Positions 1,087 through 16,311 are shown, counted from the stretch's first letter. The stretch: DNA of 64,000 bases from Methanocalculus natronophilus (GCF_038751955.1 NZ_JBCEXH010000002.1:186001-250000); one strand, 5' to 3'. Made by a program: numbers and translations. The notes: generated by a model not told the origin, from the sequence alone.

Positions 1087-1115
1087 CGGTTCATCCCCAC
1101 AGGTGTGGGGAACTC
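1087..1115 (-). CRISPR. Solitary type I-E-like CRISPR repeat (one copy, no array)
   Basis: These 29 bases have the length and layout of a type I-E repeat. On the plus strand they read CGGTTCATCCCC, a short centre ACAGGTGT, then GGGGAACTC. The E. coli I-E repeat, read on the same strand, has CGGTTTATCCCC and GGGGAACTC at the same two ends. The centre forms a CCCCAC/GTGGGG stem. By I-E convention the crRNA strand would be minus, with handle ATGAACCG. No second copy lies at spacer distance on either side and no cas gene is in the window. The repeat ends on the last base of the kinase stop codon, so it may also act as a terminator hairpin between two convergent genes. Confidence 0.55.
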
Positions 1116-4100
1116 TACCCCCGGCGCCACCCGCCCTCCGGGACCCGGATCACAAACCGTGCACCATCGCCCGGCACACCGTCTTCGGTGATGGTGATGC
1201 CTGTGATCCCAAGGATCTCGCGGATAAAGAAGAGCCCAAGCCCGGTGTTCTTCCCATACCCACGCAGAAAGATCTGCTCCTTCTCTTCAGCCGGAATACC
1301 AGGGCCATCATCTTCCCAGAGAACCAGCAGGTCACCATTATCCCTCCTGCACCAGACCCGGACGCGTGTTGCCCCCGCTGCGTACCGTTCGGTATTCTCC
1401 ATCAGGTTTGCAAAGACCTTTGGCAGCAGGGGATCTGCAAAGATTGAGATGGCATCAGTCTCATCAACCACCGGGATTCTGGCAGTTCCATGCTCGCCAA
1501 TCACCCCGGAGAGACGCTGCCAGTCCGGTGCAGCCACCCCGAGATCCTGGTACTCGCGGGTAAACTCGATCTGACGGCGGATACGCTCTGTTGCCTCTTC
1601 CATCTTTGCCAGGTAGAGGGACAGTGTTTCAGTATCCTTCAAAGTATCCCCGGCAAGCGTCAGGTACCCGTTTAAGACCGTGAGCTGGTTTGCGATATCG
1701 TGCCGGGTGATCCCGGTCATCAGGTTCAGCTTCCGGTTGGCATCTGCAATGGCGGCTGCATTCCACGCCAGTTTCTCCTCATTCTTTTTTGCAGCGGTAA
1801 TATCGCGGGCAATCCCTTCAATCGCAACGAGATTTCCGTCTGCATCATATACCGGCACATTCTTCTGCTCAACCCAGATCACCTCGCCGTCCCGCCTGAC
1901 AAGACGGGTGACAATAAGCTCACCGAGTCTGTTCAAAAGCTCATTGCGTGAGAAATTGTCCTCAGGGTGGATGATTGCCTGGAGAAGTCCGGGGTCGGCA
2001 TAAAACTCCTCAGGACCATACCCGGTGATCACCTGGATCATGGGGTTGACATACGTAAAGCAGGGTGCTGGCAGGAGATCAATTCTGTAGATGATATCCC
2101 CGGCATTCTCTGAAAGCCGCCGGAACCGCTCCTCGCTCTCCTGCAGTGCATGTTCAGTCTTTTTCCGCTCAATAATCCCGGAGAGCATATTCCCAAGCGT
2201 CATCAGTGCATTGAGATCATCATCAGTATATGCCCCCTCTTTATTTGCAACCGCAAGCAGCGCCCGTATACGCGCTCCATCAGAGATCGGAACTGAGAGA
2301 AACCGTGAAATCGGGACATGCCCTTTGGGATACCCGTGGCTTGCGGGGTGGCCACTGCTATAGTCATTGACGAGGACAGGCTTTCCTGTCCTGACCGCCT
2401 CACCCAGAAGTCCGGATTCATGAACAGAAAATTCTACAGGCGATGCTGCAATCCGGCAGTCAGCAAGCACCTCCTCTGACCATGCATGGATAGAGAGCAG
2501 GGATGCATCAGGGCTCAGCAACGCCACAAATGAATACTCCGATTCAGTCATTCTCCGTGCACCATCAAGAGCATACGCCGTAAGCTCCCTGATGGTTGCA
2601 TCGCTCTTCTGGTAGAGGCCGAGAAGCACCTCGGTCCGGCCAAGGTGAAGCCGGATCTCGTCCTCCGCATTCCTGCGATCTGTAATATCTGCCAGGAGAC
2701 CGGCCACCCCGACCACCTCCCCATCCCTGATCAGTGGCTGCGCCGCTGTCCTCATCCAGGCAACCCGCCCGTCCACGCCGATGAGCCGGTACTCAGTCGT
2801 CTCCCCGGAACCGGAGAGCACCTTCCCAAACTGAGGCATTCTCTCGCTGACGTCATCAGGGTGGACAAAATCAGTAAATTGTCTGCCAAGGAGCGCTTCA
2901 GGCGGATATCCTCCAAGCGCCTCGACATTCGGTGAGATATAGGTGATCCGCCCATCAGTATCCAGTGTGTAGACGATCTCGGAGAGATTCTCGATCAGGC
3001 TTCGGTACATCTCTTCGCTCTCGCGGAGAGCTTCTTCAACCTGTTTCAGATCTGTGATATCAATAAGGATGCCATGAACACGGGTTACCGCCCCATCCTC
3101 AATTTCCGGCCGTGCAGTTGTCCTCATCCACCGTGTCCCGGCATCCATTCCGGTAGCAGGGAATTCAGCCACGATCTCCTCGCCGGCAAGCACCCTCTGG
3201 AATTGTTCATGCTGCCTCTCCCGGTCATCCAAAGCAACAAAATCAAAGATGGATCTCCCAATCAGCTCAGTGCCTCTCAGGCCGGTACGGTTTTTGACAT
3301 TCGGTGAGACATAGGTGATCCGTCCCTCAGTATCCAGTGTGTAGACGATCTCGGTCAGGTTCTCGACCAGGTTCTGGTACTTCTCCCTGTTTTCACGGAG
3401 TTTTGCCCGTTCTTCATGAATAACGGTGATATCCCGGATCGTCTCTATCGCACCGGCACATTTCCCGTGTCCATCAAGGAGAGGCACTGCCCGTGCCCAG
3501 AGGACCGTTCTTCCTCCGCGTGGAAGTGCCGTCTCGGTCTCAGCCTCAATGACACCCTTCTCCTGGCGGATGATCGAGTAGGTGCTTGTATCCCCGTCCT
3601 CTCCACGGGCAATATCGATCAGAACCGGTCTCCTCTTCCCATAGAAGGGGATCGCATAGGCATAATCGCCTTTCCCGATCATCTCGTCTGCAGACACACC
3701 GGTCATCTCCTCGATCGCCTGGTTCCATGCAGTCACCACCCCGCCTGCATCGACGACAAACGTCGGATCCGGCAGGGTATCGATGATCCGGGTAAGCCAT
3801 TCCCGGGTATCTGCTGCTTCCCTCTCCGCCGTCTTCCGATCACCCATATCCCTGATAAAAGCCAGGATATAGAACTCTCCATTCATCTCGGCCCTGGTCA
3901 GGAAAACCTCGACATCAAAGAGCGTATCGTCAAGAGGCCGCCTGGCAACCCAGGGAAAGAGCTGATCTTCCCCCGCAAGCACCGAGTTCCATAAAACCTG
4001 AATTTCATCGGTATCATAAGAGGAGCCTGAGTAATCTTCGATGGTAAACCGAAGCGCCTCCTCCCGGGTGATCCGGTACATTGTCAGCATCGTCTCGTTC

Positions 4101-10763: not shown

Positions 10764-12428
10764 TCAGCTGTCAGGAGAACTCCCTACCCTCCTCCAGGCA
10801 CCCGGAGGCACCCTGATATGGAATGCAGCTCCCGCTCCGGCGGTTCCATTTTCTGTAATGGTGATTTTGGTTATTGAAAGAATCTCGGATACAAGATAGA
10901 GACCAAAGCCATGGCTTCTCCCAAATGCCGGTTTGAAGATTGATTTCTTCTTTGCATCCACAACACCGGGACCATTATCAGAAACAATGATCACGCAGTC
11001 ATCGCCATCCACCTCAGCAAAAAACCGGAGATAGGTTGCAGACGCAGCATGGAAGACAGCATTCTGGCAGAGATTATGAACCACCTTGCCAAGCATCGGA
11101 TCAGCATAAATCTCCAGTCCTTCAAGCTCGTTCTGAAGAGAAAGAGTCGAACCCTTCAGGATATTCGGGGCTATTGAATCGACATATGCACCAATATCCT
11201 GCCAGTTCGGGCGCTGTGCACCCATATCCTGGTAGTCACGGGTGAACTCAACCTTCCTCTGGATCGCAGTTATCTGCTCTTCCATCTTTTGGAAATAACT
11301 CTTTACCTCTTCAGGTACCGGGATATCCGAGGCGAGGTAGAGATATCCGGCTGCCACCATGACATCGTTGAGTATATCGTGGCGTGTGATCGCAGTCAGG
11401 ATGTTCAGCTTCTTATTCGCAAGAGAAAGAGCTTCCTGAGCCTCCTTTCTTGCAGCAATCTCTTTATCCTTCTCTACATTCGCATCCAGAAGCCGCTGGT
11501 AAACACGGGCATTCCTGATCGCAAGCCCAAGAACCGGGAGGAGGACTTCAGCAGTATTCCTGTACCTGTCAAGGAATTCGGGATGTGCGAAGTGATCGAG
11601 CCTGTACCAGAGAAGCACCTCATGACCATACGCAACCGGTAAAATAAGCCCGGAAGTCCCTTCTTCAAATGGAGTCTCCATATGATCAAGGGTATCTGGT
11701 GAGAAGAGAAGCCTGAAGAGACTGTCAATTTGCCTGACCACCTCCTTTTCCGTGGCTGCCGCCGCAATCTCCTTCAGGAGATCAAATGCCATTGTATAAT
11801 CTGCAACCTGCTCTTCGCAGTTCCTCAGCTGCTCTATCCCCTTTTTCCTGAGTGCATCCGTCTCAAGGGATCCAAGGGTTTCCCTGAGGCGGGCCTGGAA
11901 AAGGTCAGCGTCAACAGGCAATGTTTCAAGTGGTACAGAGAGGTGGGCCGCGAGCTCGCTGGCACCGGCATCAGCATTCCCATCATCACGGGTCCTGAGA
12001 TGAATGAGCCGCCTGATCCCGGTATCAGGACGCGTCGCCTCCTCCTGCTGCGGGGATATCTGGAAGGGAATTGATGAACAATGCCTCCCTGCATAGCCGG
12101 AGGAGATCATGTAGGCTCCCGGTACGGAGAGAGAGCGGAGCTCACTCCGTGTCAGGAAGACGTCTGGAGAGCGGAGATGGGCAGAATAGCCGATCTCAGG
12201 AACCGGGGATGAGCAGCCGCAGCTGAGGAGACAGACCGAATCAACAACTGCCGACAGCGCCTCATATGCCTCTTTAAATGCCATCTTCCACTCAGGAAGC
12301 GGCATACTGCAATGGGGATCAAAGAAGACGGTCCTGACATTCGCGTACCCTGAATTCCGAAGGGCAAGCTGTACCTCTTCCTCAAGATTGCTGCATGCAA
12401 GGATGCCAACCAGGTCTCTCTTCTTCAT
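10764..12428 (-). CDS. Histidine kinase with DUF1638-like sensory N-terminus, in a corrinoid protein operon
   Basis: Residues 1 to about 190 resemble DUF1638 (LVGILACSNLEEEVQLAL, DPHCSMPLPEWK, LLSCGCS), a domain found beside corrinoid methyltransferase genes and not normally part of kinases. A GAF-like region at about 195-325 and a short coil follow. The H-box AITRHDILND has H350. The ATPase domain has SDNGPGV and HGFGLYLVSEIL. There is no membrane segment. It overlaps the methyltransferase-like gene upstream by 4 bases and is the last of three coupled genes. The likely role, by inference, is to sense the state or ligand of the corrinoid protein or its methyl donor. The DUF1638 assignment is by eye. 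Confidence 0.75.
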   Translation of the reverse strand: MKKRDLVGILACSNLEEEVQLALRNSGYANVRTVFFDPHCSMPLPEWKMAFKEAYEALSAVVDSVCLLSCGCSSPVPEIGYSAHLRSPDVFLTRSELRSLSVPGAYMISSGYAGRHCSSIPFQISPQQEEATRPDTGIRRLIHLRTRDDGNADAGASELAAHLSVPLETLPVDADLFQARLRETLGSLETDALRKKGIEQLRNCEEQVADYTMAFDLLKEIAAAATEKEVVRQIDSLFRLLFSPDTLDHMETPFEEGTSGLILPVAYGHEVLLWYRLDHFAHPEFLDRYRNTAEVLLPVLGLAIRNARVYQRLLDANVEKDKEIAARKEAQEALSLANKKLNILTAITRHDILNDVMVAAGYLYLASDIPVPEEVKSYFQKMEEQITAIQRKVEFTRDYQDMGAQRPNWQDIGAYVDSIAPNILKGSTLSLQNELEGLEIYADPMLGKVVHNLCQNAVFHAASATYLRFFAEVDGDDCVIIVSDNGPGVVDAKKKSIFKPAFGRSHGFGLYLVSEILSITKITITENGTAGAGAAFHIRVPPGAWRRVGSSPDS

Positions 12429-13465
12429 GCGATCGGGTATCTCCCATAGGTTCTGGCAGCATCTGCGATCGCCCTGAGTACAGAATCACCGACCTGCCAG
12501 GGGATCTCGCCATGATTATCTGAGAGGATAAAACCACCTCCAGGCGCCGCCTGTGATACTGCCTCGCTGACCATGGCTTCTGCCTCCTGGTGCGACCATC
12601 TCCTCATTGAAATACCATCCAGATTTCCGATGAGTGCCATATCCCCGCCAAACGTCTTTTTCAGGAGACTGAGGTCCTCAAGTGCCGAGACACCGAGGGC
12701 AACCGCCCCGGAGGCTTTTAGTTCGTCTGCAATTGCAAGGCAGCGGCCTGAGGCAAGGTGGTATGCCACCCCGCTCCTGATTGTCGGAATGATCTCGCGG
12801 GCGATAATGCAACCGGTTCGCCTGGCAACTCCGGGAGGGATGATCGTCGGGGATGTGATTGGATCAAAGTAAACAACAGCGGTTGCCCCGGCTTCTACCT
12901 GGAGATTCGCCCACGTGGTACAGAACTCACCATTCACCTCCATCAGATCCCAAAAGAGCGGATCATCCGCAAGGAGGAGATCAAGATAGCGTGAGAAGCC
13001 AAGCTGCATCACAGGAAGAGAGAATGGAGAGATTGCAACACCAGCAACCGGAACAGAGTCACCATACCGGTCTGCCAGGACCCGTGTCGCCTTCAGCACC
13101 CGTTGTAGCGGGGGGCAGTCTGCCGGATCCGGCACCTCAAGAGAAGAGATCGCTTCAGGATCCCGGATAATCGGAGCTCCGGCATTCGGAGGACCGTTCT
13201 CATAGAACCTGACACTCCCCCCGAATGCCTCCACTTCAGCCGCCCCATAACAGAAACCGGTGAGGCAGTCGTTGCCGTACTTCTTCATCAGGAGCTCCTG
13301 GCCCCTAACCACATGGTCAACATTCCCAAAATATTCCCGGATCGATATGCCAAGCTCACGAGCACCGTGCATCGTAAGATTCAGGAAGAGCGGAACCCGA
13401 TCCGGCTCTTTGTGGGAGAGGGCAGCAAGCGTCCGTTCAAGTGATGTCATCTCTTCGCTGCTCAT
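12425..13465 (-). CDS. MtaA/MtbA-like protein of the uroporphyrinogen decarboxylase fold
   Basis: A 346-residue TIM-barrel protein with the family start SLERTLAALSHKEPDRVP. Relatives MtaA and MtbA move a methyl group from a corrinoid protein to coenzyme M through zinc held by His-x-Cys and a later Cys. Here the first site reads AYHLASGRCL, with His but no Cys two residues on. The later site reads ILSDNHGEIPWQ, with no Cys. The zinc site for thiol activation therefore looks lost or changed, and the protein may bind another methyl acceptor or act only as a partner. It overlaps the corrinoid gene and the kinase gene by 4 bases each. Confidence 0.8.
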   Translation of the reverse strand: MSSEEMTSLERTLAALSHKEPDRVPLFLNLTMHGARELGISIREYFGNVDHVVRGQELLMKKYGNDCLTGFCYGAAEVEAFGGSVRFYENGPPNAGAPIIRDPEAISSLEVPDPADCPPLQRVLKATRVLADRYGDSVPVAGVAISPFSLPVMQLGFSRYLDLLLADDPLFWDLMEVNGEFCTTWANLQVEAGATAVVYFDPITSPTIIPPGVARRTGCIIAREIIPTIRSGVAYHLASGRCLAIADELKASGAVALGVSALEDLSLLKKTFGGDMALIGNLDGISMRRWSHQEAEAMVSEAVSQAAPGGGFILSDNHGEIPWQVGDSVLRAIADAARTYGRYPIA

Positions 13466-14103
13466 TCTTCCCCTCCTCCCACAAGATCCACAGCTTCTGC
13501 CGCATCATGGGCAAAGGCATCTGCCCCAACCTCCTGCCAGAGCTGCTCATCAAAGAGGAAAGGCGCTCCTCCGACGATCAACCTGACCGGTATTCCCTCC
13601 TCATGGAGTGCATCTGCCAGGTGCCGCACCTCGAGAGCCGCCCGGAGCATCAGTGCCGATAGAAAGAGCACTTCGATGTTATCCCGCCTGATCAGTTCGA
13701 GAATTTCAGTTGCAGTCAGACCGGCACCATAGTCCTCCACGTGGTACCCGGAGCTTCGCAGTGCGGCAAGCACCGTCTCTTTTCCAAGGGTGTGGAAATC
13801 CTCAATTACTGCAATACCAATCCTTGGCTGTCCCTGCCGTATCCCGGATGCCTGAACATGAAGGCTCCTGATGTACTCCTCGCATATCTTCCCGCTCACG
13901 TAGATCTGAGAAAGAGCGGCATCACCCTCTGCCCATTGTTCTCCAATAGACCTGAGAGCAGGCTCAATCAGGGTGGATATGCAAGAATACGGATCATCGG
14001 GATTGCAGCTTCCCCTCAGGATCTCCCTGGCACGTGCGCGATCAGACCTGAGAAGGGCTGATTCAAGCGCCTCTACCGGAGAACCGTCGCCTCCGTTCTT
14101 CAT
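13462..14103 (-). CDS. Corrinoid (B12-binding) protein, MtaC/MtbC family
   Basis: A 213-residue protein with a helical cap (about 10-90) and a B12-binding Rossmann domain. The cobalt-ligand motif D-x-H-x-x-G is present as EDFHTLGKETV with H104, and the later VGGAPF fits the nucleotide-tail site. Such proteins carry a methyl group on cobalt between a substrate-specific MtxB and an MtxA enzyme. No MtxB gene is in the window. It is first in the operon, coupled by 4-base overlaps to the MtaA-like and kinase genes, so it may be the sensor subunit of a signalling unit and not part of energy metabolism. That last step is inference. Confidence 0.88.
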   Translation of the reverse strand: MKNGGDGSPVEALESALLRSDRARAREILRGSCNPDDPYSCISTLIEPALRSIGEQWAEGDAALSQIYVSGKICEEYIRSLHVQASGIRQGQPRIGIAVIEDFHTLGKETVLAALRSSGYHVEDYGAGLTATEILELIRRDNIEVLFLSALMLRAALEVRHLADALHEEGIPVRLIVGGAPFLFDEQLWQEVGADAFAHDAAEAVDLVGGGEE

Positions 14104-14572: not shown

Positions 14573-15736
14573 ATGGGCAGAATCACGAGACTCCATATCG
14601 AGAATTTCAGGGCTATCGGAAACCTCGATTACAATCCCAGGCAGCTGAACATCATCTGCGGAAAGAACAATACAGGAAAGTCTGCCCTGCTGGATGCAAT
14701 ATTTCTCAATGGAACAGGAGAATACAGGACAGAGCGGTTTTTCCTCAATGATAATAAACAGAATCTCATAAACGTTAAAGAGGAAAAATCAATACTTTTC
14801 TCAAATTTAAATGATGTCACAATCTACCAGTCACTTGACGTGTGTAAGAGAGAAAACCAAAAAGTATATGATCGCATCAAAGATTTCATCATAGAATTTC
14901 ATAGCAATCAAATTGAAGAATATGTAAACGAGAGCGAAGAGAATGATGACCTCCGGGAAGCATATATAGAGATGATTTTTGAATCTCTTGACTATACTAT
15001 CATCATATCAAATATGAGTTACCAGATTTTGCCATACACTCTTGGCGACAGGAGAACAATACTCGAACAATTTCAACGCATTATAGGACAAACAACAGTT
15101 TCTAAGGACCAGAATCGAAGATTTACATTCAGACTCTCCAGAATTTTTTCACAGCCAACATTATACAAAACAAATCATTCATCAGAAACGGAGACTCAAC
15201 CCCCGATAATCAAAATATCCCACAGGGAGAAGTTATCTCTTGAAAAAATGGAGGATGAAGAGATTCATCTCCTTGAGCAGTTCATCAAAGAACACAACCT
15301 CATCAGAAACCTTGAGCGGCTTACCCAGAATAATGTCCTGTACAGAAGAGCGGAAGAAATTGAGACAATACCAATATCTGCCCACGGTGACGGATTTATC
15401 TCGCTCCTCTCAATACTCCATTATATGCGCAAATCACAGGATGGAATCCTCTTAATCGAAGAGCCGGAGAACCATCTCCACCCTGAGTATCTCGCTATTC
15501 TTGTTGAAACGCTCTTTACCTATGCCCCCGGACTCAAAGTTCAGGTCTTCATGACAACCCACAGTTATGACCTCATCCGGACAGCACTGGATTACCCTGA
15601 GGATGATGCTGAAAAAGAACTTCTCCTTATCTCCAAGATGACAAGCGACGGCGAAAATATTGAAAAATATGATTATACTGTCGACGAGGGGCGCAGAGTA
15701 ACCGAAGAACTGAAACTTGATCTTCGGGGCATCTGA
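14573..15736 (+). CDS. AAA15/AAA21-type (OLD-like) ATPase of a putative two-gene defence system
   Basis: An SMC-like ATPase of 387 residues. It opens ITRLHIENFRAIGNLDY, and the Walker A is GKNNTGKSALLDAIF at about 30. The ABC-type signature region is GDGFISLLSIL, Walker B is GILLIEEPENHLHP, and the switch His is in VFMTTHSYDL. The middle (about 70-270) has no recognised motif. This is the ATPase half of OLD nucleases without the TOPRIM half, which lies in the next gene 2 bases on. The arrangement matches split OLD, PARIS (AriA) and Abi-type systems. Base composition is much richer in A and T than the flanks, which suggests transfer. Activity against phage is inferred, not shown. Confidence 0.82.
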   Translation: MGRITRLHIENFRAIGNLDYNPRQLNIICGKNNTGKSALLDAIFLNGTGEYRTERFFLNDNKQNLINVKEEKSILFSNLNDVTIYQSLDVCKRENQKVYDRIKDFIIEFHSNQIEEYVNESEENDDLREAYIEMIFESLDYTIIISNMSYQILPYTLGDRRTILEQFQRIIGQTTVSKDQNRRFTFRLSRIFSQPTLYKTNHSSETETQPPIIKISHREKLSLEKMEDEEIHLLEQFIKEHNLIRNLERLTQNNVLYRRAEEIETIPISAHGDGFISLLSILHYMRKSQDGILLIEEPENHLHPEYLAILVETLFTYAPGLKVQVFMTTHSYDLIRTALDYPEDDAEKELLLISKMTSDGENIEKYDYTVDEGRRVTEELKLDLRGI

Positions 15737-15738
15737 TT

Positions 15739-16311
15739 ATGCAGGGAAAGACCGTGATCCTCTGCGAAGGAGTACATGACCTGATCTTCTTCTCCATCCT
15801 CTGTGAACAGAACGGGATTCAATATGATACGGTTTATCATAAAGAGCTCAGAGAATCGCGAGAGCGAACCCCGGAATCCAATAAAGTCCGTGATTTCCTC
15901 GGCAGACGGGGGAGAGGCATACAGGCTCTCATCAAAGACGAGGATGGCTGGCAGAACTGCATTGATAACTTTGTTATCCTCTATGAAGACATGAATCCGA
16001 GGTACAGGTTGTTTCTCTGCCTTGATGACGATCAGAAGACACGAACACGACTCAAAGATGCAACAAAGGCAAGGTTTCGAAAAGATATTCTCCTGAAGCA
16101 ATCGGCATGCTCATTTCTGACCAAGGATGCGAATCGGCATCAGATATTTTTTATCCCCGGCTCACTGGAAAAGCAGATAAAGCAGATTACCGGAAAAAAT
16201 CCAGATCTGAAAGGAGACGATGGAAGACGCCACATAACCGAATTCATCGACCAATGCCGGAGAGAGGAGAGTCCGTGGCTCCTTGAACTTGAGTCCCTCC
16301 TCTCCAGGTAG
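15739..16311 (+). CDS. TOPRIM-fold protein paired with the OLD-like ATPase
   Basis: A 190-residue protein. The strand-helix KTVILCEGVHDLIFFSIL carries the TOPRIM Glu (E10), and LFLCLDDDQ supplies the DxD acidic cluster at about 93-97. These are the metal ligands of TOPRIM nucleases and of AriB/DUF4435- or DUF3226-like partners of ATPases. It starts 2 bases after the ATPase stop, so the pair is cotranscribed. At 190 residues it is shorter than typical AriB, so PARIS proper is not certain. In PARIS the ATPase holds the nuclease until a phage trigger releases it, and the nuclease then attacks host tRNA. Which model fits here cannot be told from sequence. Confidence 0.72.
   Translation: MQGKTVILCEGVHDLIFFSILCEQNGIQYDTVYHKELRESRERTPESNKVRDFLGRRGRGIQALIKDEDGWQNCIDNFVILYEDMNPRYRLFLCLDDDQKTRTRLKDATKARFRKDILLKQSACSFLTKDANRHQIFFIPGSLEKQIKQITGKNPDLKGDDGRRHITEFIDQCRREESPWLLELESLLSR

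Follow-up and report, generated by a model that had tools for sequence, protein, structure and literature searches.

Introduction

A 64,000-nucleotide stretch of the Methanocalculus natronophilus genome (GCF_038751955.1, NZ_JBCEXH010000002.1:186001-250000; hereafter, the window) carries three genes that encode, in this order on the minus strand, a corrinoid protein, a protein of the UroD/MtaA fold (hereafter, the UroD-like protein), and a sensor histidine kinase. Adjacent genes overlap by exactly 4 bases in the open reading frame (ORF) coordinates (13462-13465 between the corrinoid and UroD-like genes and 12425-12428 between the UroD-like and kinase genes), as claimed in the original prediction, which was made from the sequence alone. 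Are the first two proteins metabolic enzymes accompanied by a regulator, or are they the input of a signaling system? The original prediction held that methyltransferase parts have become a sensor that reports methyl-donor or cobamide status by phosphorylation. Comparative genomics supports the sensory role, and we consider the trio very probably a sensory cassette; "by phosphorylation" proved too narrow, because relatives with diguanylate cyclase outputs exist.

The N-terminus of the kinase is related to DUF1638, a family for which genetic but no mechanistic data are available. B12-dependent methionine synthesis in Phaeobacter requires DUF1638 as well as a RamA-like protein (Price 2018, PMC5764234), a finding that gives the role of DUF1638 in B12 methyl transfer independent genetic support, and DUF1638 goes up together with RamA in Ruegeria on methylated osmolytes (PMC12478193). 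Neither paper describes DUF1638 as a sensor.

Linkage of the three genes across bacteria and archaea

Relatives were recruited by similarity to the UroD-like protein alone, so that their neighbors were unselected, and 80 loci with 50-85% identity were kept. They span about a dozen phyla: the archaeal hosts are Methanomicrobiales, Methanomassiliicoccales, and Methanomethylophilaceae, and the bacterial hosts are Desulfobacterota, alpha-, beta-, and gamma-proteobacteria, Nitrospirota, Nitrospinota, Chloroflexota, Riflebacteria, Kiritimatiellia, SAR324, and others. A corrinoid gene lies near the UroD-like gene in all 80 loci, and the DUF1638-type module downstream starts at most 120 nt away in 73. 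Because the start/stop overlap of the corrinoid/UroD-like pair is kept in 65 of 78 pairs and 77 of the 80 loci keep all parts, the linkage is beyond chance. The three remaining loci end at a contig edge (L052), carry restriction-modification genes in the sensor's place (L061), or retain only the GAF-kinase part (L104). Within 1.5 kb of 12 genuine MtaA loci, taken from methylotrophic methanogens as a negative control, neither a sensor nor a member of the corrinoid family was present. The loci nearest to that of the window are from Methanocalculus taiwanensis (L033) and a metagenome-assembled genome labelled Methanocorpusculaceae (L036). Among the cable-bacteria/Desulfobulbaceae loci, two have a duplicated UroD-like gene (L040, L052) and two have the order UroD-corrinoid-sensor (L057, L062).

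The spread of the cassette is patchy, with the UroD-like gene in 18 of 150 Methanomicrobiales genomes and occurrence in 3 of the 297 genomes of Geomonas' phylum. The three-gene association expected across Methanomicrobiales held wherever surroundings were compared, except in G106, where the genes are on different contigs, and it extends to many other phyla. The sensor profile, applied to 39 genomes, gave a single strong match in nearly all of them, at the known locus, and every full-length match examined adjoins a corrinoid gene; the coupling of kinase and corrinoid genes on which the original prediction relied thus withstood this search. Among the second matches examined were another complete trio (L147) and, in Parabeggiatoa, a corrinoid protein together with a DUF1638-GAF sensor and a receiver gene (L146:3757-7111), with no adjacent UroD-like gene.

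Patristic distances of the three proteins (66 loci) gave Mantel r values of 0.74-0.84, compared with a maximum of 0.25 in 500 label shuffles; common ancestry of the hosts accounts for part of this co-variation. In the UroD tree, phyla are intermingled at several supported places, a pattern that is consistent with transfer of the whole unit without proving it.

No further gene family is common to more than six of the 80 neighborhoods, which fits a stand-alone sensor and not a metabolic operon. Searches of the window's genome found no MtaB, MttB, or MtaA above threshold, and the trio is therefore no part of methylotrophic methanogenesis. The sole RACo_C_ter gene of this genome, for a RamA-like activase, sits in the CODH/ACS cluster and not with the corrinoid gene.

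Exchange of the output domain

Among 68 sensor proteins, the output is a kinase ATPase domain in 53 and a GGDEF domain in 11. The GGDEF-type sensors fall into several clades and come from Nitrospirota, Methylococcaceae, Desulfobacterota, Coprothermobacterota, and Bacillota. The kinase core of the window protein is similar to those of other Methanomicrobiales kinases (to 1e-50) and scarcely to bacterial ones, whereas the sensor part is common to both. Thus, the input module is the part that travels, while its output is exchanged; sensory modules behave in this manner and metabolic enzymes do not. In a Riflebacteria protein (L073:7017-8279), DUF1638-GAF is followed by a short Cys-rich tail (ICSYCKKIR...CPHCYE), with neither a kinase nor a GGDEF domain.

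Domains of the sensor kinase

The window kinase alone gave no Pfam match to DUF1638 (PF07796) at E <= 1 and none in NCBIfam, and the PF07796 profile found no match in the window's own genome. At the family level, PF07796 matches 57 of the 68 sensor proteins aligned with the window kinase (best, 4.9e-15), and in four loci (L081, L082, L092, L051) the same N-terminal region is a separate gene, each above the DUF1638 cut-off. The DUF1638-like N-terminus proposed earlier is thus borne out by the relatives while being undetectable in the window sequence alone.

An AlphaFold2 (AF2) model from the sensor family alignment (predicted local distance difference test score, pLDDT, 92.3) consists of an alpha/beta domain and a GAF domain joined by a long helix, with another long helix running from the GAF domain to the kinase. 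The GAF domain aligned structurally with those of PDE6 (VIA-align Z 12.8) and KdpD (Z 10.5). For the N-terminal domain, Foldseek found no match among solved structures at E <= 0.001, and the VIA-align rows (Z 7-9.5) represent common Rossmann-like folds and are not trustworthy; to our knowledge, no DUF1638 structure has been solved. The domain carries Cys12, Cys40, and Cys72, which are conserved in 66, 63, and 62 of the 66 aligned sensors, respectively, and a fourth Cys present in 52 of them is Ser87 in the window kinase. This Cys set may bind a metal.

The catalytic set that defines a histidine kinase is complete, comprising H350 in an RHD motif, which is likely the phospho-acceptor, an N-box (NLCQNA), a G1 box (DNGPG), and a G2 box (GFGLYLV). 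No hydrophobic stretch is long enough for a membrane span. No response regulator was recognized beside the cassette; no genome-wide search for a partner was made. Elsewhere in the window (~1106-1756, minus strand), another histidine kinase with a core 44% identical to that of the cassette kinase lies within a 1204-aa open frame.

DUF1638 is its own gene in two related but different clusters, corrinoid-UroD-DUF1638-GAF/PAS kinase (L148) and the Methylococcaceae operon RamA-corrinoid-UroD-DUF1638-GAF kinase-receiver/GGDEF (L150:2674-10722); domain names beyond the three profiles were assigned by eye from sequence. Their arrangement supports DUF1638 as a putative link between corrinoid protein and kinase.

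An altered metal site in the UroD-like protein

The UroD-like protein matches PF01208 (1.6e-45), and the search with its AF2 model (pLDDT 95.5) retrieved the MtaA structures 4ay7 and 4ay8 as the best matches (TM 0.86-0.88; E 9.2e-20 for 4ay7), which places the predicted structure in the UroD TIM-barrel fold of the MtaA type. It shares this fold and one zinc-ligand His with the MtaA/MtbA methylcobamide:coenzyme M methyltransferases but is 20% identical to them and scores far below the cut-offs for MtaA/CmuA (TIGR01463, 85.1 versus 235.4 bits; NF040654, 63.3 versus 400) and for MtbA. Its gene accompanies a DUF1638 sensor and not MtaB/MtaC. True MtaA was rejected as its identity on account of the changed zinc set and this missing MtaB/MtaC, and HemE (uroporphyrinogen decarboxylase) on account of a score far under the cut-off (TIGR01464, 30 versus 303 bits).

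The zinc set of MtaA is His-x-Cys ... Cys, which in M. mazei we take to be His237-x-Cys239 ... Cys316. Aligned with true MtaA, the window protein and nearly all of its relatives read H236-x-A238 ... H318: Cys239 is replaced by Ala (A238 in 72 and H236 in 71 of 76 sequences) and Cys316, the third zinc ligand, by His, at a place where the MtaA sequence is PGCGIAP. The segments AYHLAS (residues 234-239) and SDNHGEIP (residues 315-322), which had been singled out from the sequence as lacking the usual zinc Cys, contain Ala238 and His318 and indeed lack it.

The UroD-like protein averages 52% identity to distant (non-Methanocalculus) relatives, the corrinoid protein 40%, and the sensor 21%. Being the most conserved of the three, the UroD-like protein is not the product of a decayed gene. 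Its conservation suggests that the family keeps one specific ligand, with altered metal or thiol chemistry.

The corrinoid protein

The corrinoid protein scores above the cut-offs of both PF02310 (60.4 bits) and PF02607 (28.4 bits), and the DFHTLG motif predicted as a complete B12 motif is present (residues 102-107) as a complete DxHxxG. In the family alignment (72 sequences), D102, H104, G107, S149, G178, and G179 are invariant or nearly so. With its cap domain, its B12-binding domain, and its DxHxxG motif, the protein belongs to the methyltransferase corrinoid proteins, although it does not reach the cut-off of the characterized methylamine-type subfamily TIGR02370 (74.1 versus 215.3 bits); it is closer to this methyltransferase type (9e-21) than to CarH (8e-10).

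A second B12-type protein is encoded in the same genome (L128:5249-5896, plus strand; G000:C2, ~71.2-71.9 kb); its motif reads DEYHQLG and is not a clean DxHxxG. Its gene is directly 3' of one for a 1657-aa response-regulator/PAS kinase and 5' of one for a 423-aa kinase, and this group is possibly another corrinoid-linked signaling set.

Proposed mechanism and alternatives

We propose that the cassette is self-contained and horizontally mobile and that the corrinoid and UroD-like proteins would be its sensing parts. The UroD-like protein would bind one particular small molecule, which is probably a methyl donor, and pass a methyl group to Co(I) of the corrinoid protein. With no acceptor methyltransferase encoded nearby, the methylated (or unmethylated/oxidized) corrinoid state would persist as the signal. 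The N-terminal DUF1638 domain of the kinase would dock to or read the corrinoid protein, and the GAF domain and helix would relay its state to the output, which is here a cytoplasmic histidine kinase and elsewhere a diguanylate cyclase; in the former case, kinase activity toward a response regulator encoded elsewhere would change. To the three-gene unit, the DUF1638 identity, the GAF fold, the output swapping, and the altered metal site, all computed here, this proposal adds by inference sensing, methyl transfer, direct contact, and phosphorylation, as well as the identity of the signal (methyl donor, cobamide, or cobalt redox state). We assign a probability of about 0.55 to this methyl-donor version, in which a corrinoid methyl relay is read by DUF1638-GAF and sets an exchangeable output.

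Several observations weigh against it. The MtaA zinc/thiol site is altered, and methyl transfer may have been lost with it. The Parabeggiatoa pair (L146) consists of a corrinoid protein and a sensor with no UroD-like gene beside them. RACo_C_ter, the mark of a RamA-like activase, was detected in 27 of 39 relative genomes; that it went undetected in the other 12, of which some are incomplete, poses a difficulty if Co(I) needs regeneration. Finally, the sensors of Methanocalculus have diverged; two Trp are missing, as is one of the four Cys that are conserved elsewhere (S87).

The main rival, to which we give distinctly less credence, is a redox, oxygen, or cobamide-status sensor, in which the cobalt oxidation state or cobamide occupancy would be the signal, perhaps together with the DUF1638 Cys, and the UroD-like protein would tune or cap the cofactor without methyl transfer. 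The near-complete retention of Cys12/40/72 (62-66 of 66 sensors), the altered zinc ligands, and the missing UroD-like gene of L146 all favor it, as do hosts that include both anaerobes and micro-aerophiles (methanogens, Desulfobulbaceae, Beggiatoa kin, and methanotrophs). DUF1638 also tracks the reductive activase RamA in P. inhibens (PMC5764234), and RamA lies within one related operon (L150). What such a sensor explains less well is the UroD-like protein, whose conservation exceeds that of its partners and whose near-invariant pocket motif suggests a specific ligand.

That the trio is a working methyltransferase operon, in which the first two proteins act as metabolic enzymes and the kinase as local regulator, is improbable. 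Kinase-linked corrinoid methyltransferase operons do exist, as the mec cassette with its PocR histidine kinase illustrates (PMC9768040), but the neighborhoods compared here share no further gene, whether for a second methyltransferase, a transporter, or anything else, DUF1638 is built into the kinase or cyclase itself, and the genome has neither MtaB nor MttB above threshold. Light sensing by alkyl-cobalamin photolysis on the corrinoid protein has a precedent in CarH (PMC11796333), yet we regard it as very remote here and set the CarH-type reading aside: the corrinoid protein is of the methyltransferase type, many hosts are labelled as sediment or digester organisms, and CarH function involves no UroD-like partner.

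Relation to known systems

The output domains of the cassette are ordinary, and its multi-protein input is, as far as we have seen, undescribed. CarH is likewise a cobamide-binding protein serving as a sensor, but it is a B12-dependent photoreceptor repressor, a single DNA-binding protein with neither a methyltransferase nor a kinase. In Methanosarcina, the MsmS/Mts regulation ties a sensor kinase to corrinoid methyltransferase physiology and offers a lead only; MsmS is a heme PAS/GAF kinase, and we know of no corrinoid or DUF1638 module in it.

The DUF1638 proteins of the B12-dependent methionine synthase and glycine betaine systems belong to the same Pfam family, have an adjacent corrinoid protein, and partly share the Cys positions; they are separate small proteins tied to RamA and metabolism, whereas the cassette DUF1638 is fused to GAF-kinase or GGDEF. 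MecA, the kinase of the mec cassette, also adjoins corrinoid and UroD-family genes but has a PocR sensor domain, acts with a response regulator that is a separate protein, and lies in a full catabolic cassette, and the available part of its description reports no DUF1638 fusion (PMC9768040). A published description of the present cassette was not found in the searchable literature, most subscription papers lying outside the search.

The cassette could, we suggest tentatively, be the first signaling system in which a corrinoid methyl-transfer relay acts as the receptor: the UroD-like protein would sense a specific molecule chemically and leave a methyl or redox mark on the corrinoid protein, and DUF1638 would be its reader for kinases and diguanylate cyclases of archaea and bacteria. 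DUF1638 thereby gains a testable role and, if the proposal is true, its first molecular one, as a reader of corrinoid-protein state; B12 biology would come to include, besides catalysis and light sensing, the sensing of chemicals via two-component and c-di-GMP pathways. The patchy occurrence of the cassette in about a dozen phyla and its exchange of outputs suggest a general signal, seemingly overlooked, in anoxic and micro-oxic habitats.

Features and neighboring genes in the window

The features of the cassette are listed in Table 1.

Table 1. Features of the three-gene cassette, in positions of the window
Feature	Position	Strand	Basis
Corrinoid protein, 213 aa, MtbC/MtgC-like, cap and Rossmann domain	13462-14103	-	PF02607 and PF02310 above cut-off
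DFHTLG (DxHxxG) cobamide-binding motif, residues 102-107	13783-13800	-	
UroD/MtaA-fold protein, 346 aa, distinct family	12425-13465	-	PF01208 1.6e-45; AF2 model
H236-L-A238, site of the MtaA zinc motif H-x-C, Cys to Ala	12752-12760	-	Alignment to true MtaA
D316-NHGEIP-W323 signature	12497-12520	-	Near-invariant in 76 sequences
Soluble sensor histidine kinase, 554 aa, DUF1638-like, GAF, HisKA, and HATPase	10764-12428	-	
DUF1638-type domain, residues 1-172, C12/C40/C72 conserved	11913-12428	-	Family PF07796 matches; AF2 domain
GAF domain, ~residues 205-320	11469-11816	-	Structural alignment
HisKA dimerization/phospho-acceptor region, residues 344-402, candidate H350	11223-11399	-	Weak PF00512 match below cut-off; RHD motif
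HATPase_c, residues 446-542	10803-11093	-	PF02518 8e-13

Adjoining the cassette on the plus strand (14573-16311) are a gene for a 387-aa RecF/OLD-like ATPase and, 3 bases on, one for a 190-aa protein; this pair is possibly a two-gene defense system.

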